Below, one piece after another: positions 35,101 through 38,100 of a DNA stretch of 64,000 nt. Both the position numbers and the translations under genes were made by a program. Origin of the DNA: Datnioides undecimradiatus. Taxonomy: Eukaryota > Chordata > Actinopteri > Lobotiformes > Datnioididae. Position 1 is the first letter of the stretch; the number at the start of each line of letters is the position of its first letter. The notes beneath the pieces are model-generated. The model was not told where the DNA came from, made no database searches, and saw only the letters and a list, made by a program, of their open reading frames with translations. The stretch lies in contig WARS01000031.1 of the NCBI GenBank assembly GCA_008933995.1, positions 4,937,979 through 5,001,978 on the forward strand. Direction: 5' to 3'.

Positions 35101-38100
35101 AGCACCATTTGAAAATCTGTGCAATAACAGTCGTTATCAGAGACATGCCAGCATAACCATACAGGAAATCCAAATAAAATGATCAAAAAAATAATAAAAT
35201 TATCAAAAATTTGTAAAAGTGTTATTTTGGTGTCTCCACCAAGAATCAGGCTGCAAGTTGGCACCAGGGTTGAAATATAAGAAATGATCCCAAATCCAGA
35301 GGAAGAGATAAATTATAATCAAATTAGGGAAAAAAGCTACCTTTTCATGTAACTGTTGTTGTTTATGTTACATCTCAAATGACAAAACAATGGAATGTTT
35401 TCATGCATTTTTATGCCAATCACAGAAATAAAAGATATTGTTCCCAGTAAAAACATAACCGTGTGTGTTGGTGTCATGAAGAAGCTCATCTTCAACAAAA
35501 AAAGCCTCACAAGAAAAGCTCACATCTTTTTTGTTGGGGTTTCACAAGGACTAATAGGAATTTACTTGAGACAGACATGTTTTTGAGTTAGCCCTACTGC
35601 ACGATTCACTGAGGCATCAGTGAGAAATGTTCCTACAAATCTATGGTTCTGATTTTCACATGGAAAAACATGGACAGGTTGGTAAGATTTTTTCCAAACT
35701 CTCCACAATCTGTTGCAAACCCCCTGCACCCCACCCCTCCCCCCAAAACAGGCCATGCATTTGCTGACACGTGCTTCATTTTATTGTATAACACACTTGT
35801 TTTCCAAGGCGAAGGCGATTCAACACACAGCAAGTCATTTCTTCCTTTCAACACGCCCCATACTTTGTTCTCATTTTGGCCTGGTATGTAATGTACTGGT
35901 TCATGCTCTAATGATTTGTATGTAGGCCAATATTCAAAACCTATGATTAACTAGAAAACGTTTGTCAATTAAAGGCCTGATTTTCAGCATCAAAAGTGAT
36001 AAAGTTGTATTTACAAAACTGTAATTGTCGTCAATTGATACACTATCCCACATCTACAGTAGGGAATGAAATCTTAATCTTGTAATTTTATTTGATCAGA
36101 TAAAATGACATATGCAATAATTTTAATAATGCCAGAAGTAAGTGTAGGAATAACTTCCAGTATATTTCTATGGTCATTATTCCAATGCATGTTTGTTGAG
36201 CTGACTCTTGTACGTCCTGTCCAACGGTCATCACAGTTCTTCATGCATCTATTTAACACCATGCTTTAGCACTCTCTCCCACACCACACATAAGGCATGA
36301 CTACCTGAGAAATCCTCTTCATCTCATCAAAAATACTCTGTCTGCAACTCCAAAACACACCCTAATAATATATGGAGATAATTGGGGTGAAGAACAACTT
36401 TAAAAAAACACAACAAAGACAATAAGTCATAAAACATATCTGTGTAATTACCATTTTAAAAAAAATCACCTTGCAGCTAAATGAAGCTGACCTGTGGACC
36501 TACTCCTACCACAGTTTGGGTGGAAAATCAACCTCTTGGATGATGAACGAGTGATGATTAAAGAGCTGTATTTCCAGTTTTTGCAACCTCTTTGTGATGT
36601 TTGTGATCTTGGCAAAATGTGACTGACAGGTCCTATAAAGAAGCTGCAGCTGACAACACACAAGTGTATTATGAGATTAAAGGTTATTTTTACCGTGGAT
36701 ATAATCACAAGGTGCTGACATGAAGCCATGGGTACTGCAAAGCACAGGCTGCATTTCTTTACGTTTGTAACTGATTCTAAATGCCACAAAAATAGTTATA
36801 ACCTATAATGTTGTGAAATGTCAGTATCCATTAAACCCATTGTAAGTCAAATATTGTAATCTTTAAGAGCTTGATTTTAAGACCTTCAATATCATTTTAG
36901 ATCCAAAGGCAAAACTATTTCTTTGGCTGAAAAGGGAAACATGATTTACAAAGTCCTAATGTATGTCATCATTTGACATGAATGAATGATGCCTGCTCAC
37001 AGTGTGAAGAACCTGCAGCCTCTCAGCCTTTGTGTTTGTTTGTTTTTTTAAATTTGTTACTAAACTTGCAGCTTTCCATATTCCCTTGCTTGTTGGGTAG
37101 TCAGCAACCATGACTGACAATTATAAAAAGATGGCAAGATGCAAGATGTCAACATCTTTAGGTAGCCAACGTGACATAAACATACAGAGCTGTATTTCCA
37201 GTTTTTGCAACCTCTTTGTGATCACAAACATCACAAAGAGGTACTTTGACTGATTTAGGAGTCTCTCATTGTCTACTAGGTTATTCAAATACATATATAT
37301 TGGACATTTTATGATCACCTACTGGGTATGAGCATTTTCCCGAACAGCCTTACACGCAACATCTACAACTACACCAAATTCACAGTAAATCAAAAACTAA
37401 TTATGACCTTATTTTCTTTATTTTACTTTAAACATTCTAATACTTCCTAAGGTGACAAAGGAACCGTGTGTAATCTAACTGCACATTACACACATTTAAA
37501 AACTTCAATTTGCAGTCAACTAAACCAAATATTTCCAAAAGACACCTGGCACAAATTTGGATGGACCACTGTACCTAAATATAGTGTTGGAAAATGACGG
37601 TGGCTGGTCGATCTGTGAGGAATCCACACGGTTACAGCATTGGAAAACACAGATGAGGCCACTGAAATTAATATTTAATCGTCATCAGATATACGCACTG
37701 CTCAATCTCTTTATTTTTTAAATTGTGGTTCCACAGAATGAATTTGCTACCTTGAAGTGCTAGTGAACAAATTGCTTTTTCAGACACCATTGGCAGCATG
37801 GCAGTAAAAGTTTACTAACTGAAAACTACTTAGGAGGTTTGTGCACACCTGTATTGACAAACTCAAAAATAATGTAGGCAGGACAATGCCCTGTGTCAGC
37901 TTTCTGATTTGAGACTTAATAGAAAAAGACCCCTAAACCTTTACAGGAAAACACTGGGAACCTCCAGTGGTGACAACAAAATCCATTTTAAGAGTAGGTG
38001 CAAATGTCACATGGTCACTGTTTGTTTTTGGCTTGCTGAGACTTGCACTAGCATAACAGTCCATATAGGAGCACCTTTGAAAGCATTGGTCTATGGTCTA

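Follow-up and report, generated by a model that had tools for sequence, protein, structure and literature searches.

A 57-nt in-frame exon of usp47 in Datnioides undecimradiatus corresponds to an optional exon of human USP47

Analysis of a 64,000-nt stretch of the Datnioides undecimradiatus genome (contig WARS01000031.1, positions 4,937,979 to 5,001,978; hereafter the window) identified exon 2 of usp47 as a 57-nt cassette of 19 codons in phase 0, located at 36305..36361 on the minus strand. The identification drew on the sequence itself, tblastn, a spliced gene model and simulation. Orthology between this cassette and the optional human USP47 exon for residues 14-33 is well supported. We consider it very probable that the exon is this orthologue and that it is included in some transcripts and skipped in others. 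The cassette is likely to be optional in D. undecimradiatus as well, and a regulated choice between the two forms is plausible.

The usp47 coding region was modelled by spliced alignment at 23122..41957 on the minus strand, comprising 29 coding exons and 1386 codons plus a stop. The human USP47 query was a working sequence with no database source, although its length (1375) and its lengths after either published deletion (1355 and 1287) agree with those given in a review (PMC8484750). In tblastn this query matched the minus strand between 41951 and 23125, and the spliced model, built with GT-AG introns, translated without interruption into 1386 residues; of 1361 aligned residues, 1124 were identical to the human query. 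This model is biased towards human because the alignment picked the junctions, with simple splice scores used as a tie-break. Where exons 6 and 7 meet, the residue is Asn here and Lys in the human query. The coding part of exon 1 (41913..41957, minus strand) begins with the ATG at 41957 and ends at the donor GAG/GTGAGG. Exon 3 (34833..35027, minus strand) comprises 65 codons, is phase 0 at both ends and follows the acceptor CAG/ATTCAA, and exon 4 (33075..33191, minus strand) opens with the residue matching human 102. A Pfam search of the first 430 residues returned two catalytic-domain models only, including UCH (1.1e-42), and none over the cassette or exon 3. The best PDB match of a 237-aa catalytic piece was 8itn, named USP47 (508 residues, E 2.5e-103), which, judged by length, is probably the C. 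elegans construct of a structural study (PMC10516900). As expected of a USP47 orthologue, the gene is full-length, colinear and equipped with a USP catalytic domain. A genome search with a 390-aa query, which scores the best candidates only, listed 16 matches, nine of them in usp47 and seven weaker ones elsewhere (34-61 % identical) that we take for other USP genes; no second usp47 copy or retrocopy was present among the 16 matches listed in this genome.

Two further open frames were observed in the window. The frame at 44092-44499 on the minus strand, upstream of usp47, carries a C-type lectin domain (Pfam Lectin_C 3.1e-18) and also matches a poxvirus A33R model below cut-off, which was taken to reflect a shared lectin-like fold. 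The second, at 63540-63998 on the plus strand near the window end, is likewise C-type lectin-like (Lectin_C 3.2e-06, residues 50-96) and has, by eye, a signal-like start.

Reading the minus strand from 36381 to 36299, an acceptor ending TATTATTAG is followed by 57 bases forming 19 open codons and then by the donor GTAGTC, so that the boundaries read ...TATTATTAG/GGTGTG...TCTCAG/GTAGTC (36361..36305). The coordinates, peptide, acceptor, donor and phase 0 of the exon had all been given in a preliminary description of this DNA, and each proved exact when checked against the sequence. Both other sense frames of the cassette contain stops, and its junctions with exon 1 and exon 3 are both phase 0. 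Without the cassette, usp47 retains its frame over 1367 codons with no internal stop; divisibility by three is nonetheless weak evidence for a cassette because 13 of the 29 usp47 coding exons share it. The upstream gap from exon 1 measures 5551 nt and the downstream gap to exon 3 only 1277 nt, and the preliminary placement of the exon 5 kb from either flanking exon was therefore right on the upstream side alone. Exon 1 contributes 15 residues ahead of the cassette, or 13 counted from the second Met. The exon ends at residue 34 and the catalytic cysteine is residue 201, leaving 166 residues between them, in fair agreement with an earlier estimate of about 160. The same description spoke of a choice between two N-termini; because the start codon is common to both forms, the choice is instead that of an optional insert after residue 15.

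Human USP47 is described in the review PMC8484750 as a 1375-aa form accompanied by forms lacking residues 14-33 and 14-101 (1355 and 1287 aa, respectively). These deletion limits come from the review and are independent of our human query. The cassette starts 13 residues past the second Met, matching the start of the human deletions as that review gives them, and the exon 3/4 boundary of the window's gene corresponds to human 101/102. Because the starts of exon 2 and exon 4 both match, the two published human deletions sit on exon limits here, the shorter on exon 2 and the longer on exons 2 and 3 together; exon 3 corresponds to the part that, in addition to the cassette, is missing from the human 1287-aa form. 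At the peptide level, 13 of the 19 residues are identical to residues 14-33 of the human query, and 11 of 13 positions are conserved in the core VFWxCRQxIFDEM. Three features expected of an optional USP47 exon are present: an insert after human residue 13, phase 0 with a length divisible by three and no stop, and a conserved peptide. Since junction and phase are the same and the residues largely so, we regard the two exons as orthologous, and the proposal that fish keep the same exon as human stands. An old age for the exon, between fish and human, is likewise supported by this comparison. Degenerate-pattern scans of viral contigs and genome contigs, which included no second vertebrate genome, returned 0 places, and a literature search with the human exon peptide gave no match. 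The human optional exon was already known, and the fish exon, as its orthologue, is largely ordinary.

Splice sites were scored leave-one-out on the introns of usp47 itself. Among 28 acceptors, that of the cassette (TTATCTCCATATATTATTAG; 36362..36381, minus strand) was the third weakest, and among 28 donors its own (CAG/GTAGTC; 36299..36304, minus strand) was the seventh weakest. Cassette exons commonly combine a weak acceptor with a long preceding intron, here 5.5 kb, and it is because of this combination that we infer alternative use. The donor of exon 1, at 9.2 bits, exceeds the median of 6.7; counted up from the weakest, it nevertheless ranks only 17th of 28. The cassette is not alone in usp47 in having weak sites: the donor of exon 4 is the weakest of 28 and its acceptor the fifth weakest of 28, and exon 3 has the fourth weakest donor of 28 together with an ordinary acceptor (15th of 28). 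Exon 4 may itself be another candidate for optional use, as its skipping leaves the frame intact over 1347 codons.

An extension compatible with optional use of the cassette is that splicing leaves out either the cassette alone or the cassette plus exon 3, so that the gene would yield three forms, as human USP47 does. The human forms without residues 14-33 and without 14-101 (PMC8484750) provide a precedent, exons 2, 3 and 4 are all phase 0, joint skipping of exons 2 and 3 would keep an open frame of 1302 codons, and the exon 3 donor is among the weakest of the gene. The ordinary acceptor of exon 3 speaks against it, however, and the joint skip is permitted by the sequence and no more, so we hold this three-form extension only tentatively. 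If it occurs, the joint skip would delete a large part of the conserved region that lies between tail and catalytic core.

The exon could also be real and orthologous but constitutive in D. undecimradiatus, with skipping a trait of other vertebrates. Conservation of the peptide core is what an ordinary coding exon would display, and other usp47 exons such as exon 4 carry equally weak or weaker sites; against this, the cassette acceptor is weak and skipping has its human precedent (PMC8484750), and we judge constitutive use to be distinctly improbable.

Splice signals alone do not single out the cassette. When all in-frame open pairs of 24-250 nt with both sites over a loose floor were collected from the 6885 nt that separate exon 1 from exon 3, 13 of 178 matched or exceeded the summed splice score of the cassette. 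Only two pairs equalled or exceeded the cassette at both sites, one being the cassette itself and the other a 135-nt pair at 38075-38209 on the minus strand. The peptide provided a separate line of evidence, in that exon location played no part in either the simulation or the tblastn test. Across all six frames of the window, no ungapped 15-residue segment matched the human exon peptide better than the cassette, which scored 70, whereas 60 first-order Markov windows of 64 kb gave a mean of 27.8 (sd 3.6) and a maximum of 38. By tblastn with the human query, the cassette was recovered at E 0.004 with 12 of 15 residues identical. A chance open frame was rejected on the simulated scores, and a pseudo-exon, in which splice-like sites within a long intron happen to flank an open frame, is exceedingly unlikely given this peptide match and a location at the orthologous junction in the orthologous phase, even though comparable splice scores arise elsewhere in the intron.

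Returning to the cassette as an optional exon, the spliceosome would include it in some transcripts and skip it in others, and proteins bound in the flanking introns, perhaps RBFOX and ESRP, could tip the balance between the two outcomes. Two GCATG words follow the donor at +41 and +59 (36242..36264, minus strand), the second lying within TGCATG (36247..36242), and are possible RBFOX sites; a G/U-rich run, TGTGTGGTGTGGG, at +15 to +27 (36278..36290, minus strand) is a possible ESRP- or CELF-type site. Within the 200 nt after the donor, an equal count of GCATG was reached in 0.020 of 198 intron tiles, of TGCATG (one occurrence) in 0.116 and of G/U words in 0.015. The scan covered 11 motifs on two sides, amounting to 22 tests, so that chance alone should give about one result at 0.05; the GCATG and G/U-rich signals would fail correction for this number of tests and are therefore leads only, offering a hint of RBFOX/ESRP control of the cassette. 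The 200 nt before the acceptor (36362-36561, minus strand) contain nine YCAY words, a count equalled in 0 of 198 tiles; these are possible NOVA-type sites, which we do not claim since they arose among the same 22 tests. Folding gave no signal of RNA structure around the cassette, 192 of 200 shuffles folding at least as well. No Rfam match at gathering scores was obtained in 34800-42000 and no tandem repeat in 35000-42000. Human evidence for such control is indirect: a study of the RBFOX2-ESRP1 axis reports a USP47 cassette exon that shifts under hypoxia in human breast cancer cells, confirmed by qRT-PCR (PMC7116222). USP47 is also an MTA1-bound transcript in PMC7479136, the available text of which does not mention the cassette exon.

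Inclusion would lengthen the protein by 19 residues, probably a helix, placed after the N-terminal tail and ahead of the conserved part encoded by exons 3 and 4. The insert is only moderately amphipathic: its hydrophobic moment ranks at the 88th percentile among all 18-mers of the protein, a point against the helix. The insert would leave the catalytic domain untouched, and we think that it most likely tunes partner contact, whether binding or placement, rather than catalysis. For the N-terminal region, a search for solved structures up to E 10 gave a single match, to a ribosomal protein (E 0.22). The stretch encoded by exons 3 and 4 (34833-35027 and 33075-33191, minus strand) is conserved with human, has no Pfam match and displays, by eye, a ubiquitin-like pattern of strands and helix; it might form a ubiquitin-like fold. 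The available text of the literature searched contained no account of the function of the USP47 insert. In the structural study PMC10516900, residues 1-1287 are called full-length human USP47; because this length is that of the form without the cassette and exon 3, the activity data reported there do not bear on the insert. A chemoproteomic study (PMC6727631) states that its peptides could not separate USP47 isoform 1 from other forms.

Retention of a short optional exon since the fish-tetrapod split would suggest that the USP47 insert has a function, and gene models without the 57-nt exon would be incomplete. A broader proposal, which we think unlikely as a whole, is that the N-terminal region forms a three-state switch (insert present; insert absent; insert absent together with exon 3), conserved between fish and human and controlled by RBFOX/ESRP-type proteins in epithelial-mesenchymal change, that would set the partners of USP47. 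If this were true, the study in PMC10516900 would have used a form without the switch region.

Among known systems, the closest is the insert of residues 14-33 that distinguishes the 1375-aa from the 1355-aa form of human USP47 (PMC8484750). The likeness extends to the gene, the junction, the peptide core and the position of an in-frame insert before the catalytic core. The human insert differs in having 20 residues against 19 codons here, the difference falling near the end (KKKFLQ in human, KRISQ here), and it is for human that optional use has been published. The human 1287-aa form without residues 14-101, described in the same review, has a deletion whose limits coincide with the start of exon 2 and the end of exon 3 in the window's gene, although the form itself is known from human. 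The third comparison is with the hypoxia and epithelial-mesenchymal programme involving RBFOX2 and ESRP1, to which a human USP47 cassette exon responds, the available text leaving unstated which exon this is (PMC7116222); the likeness of usp47 in the window lies in the GCATG words and G/U-rich run past the cassette donor, which are leads only.
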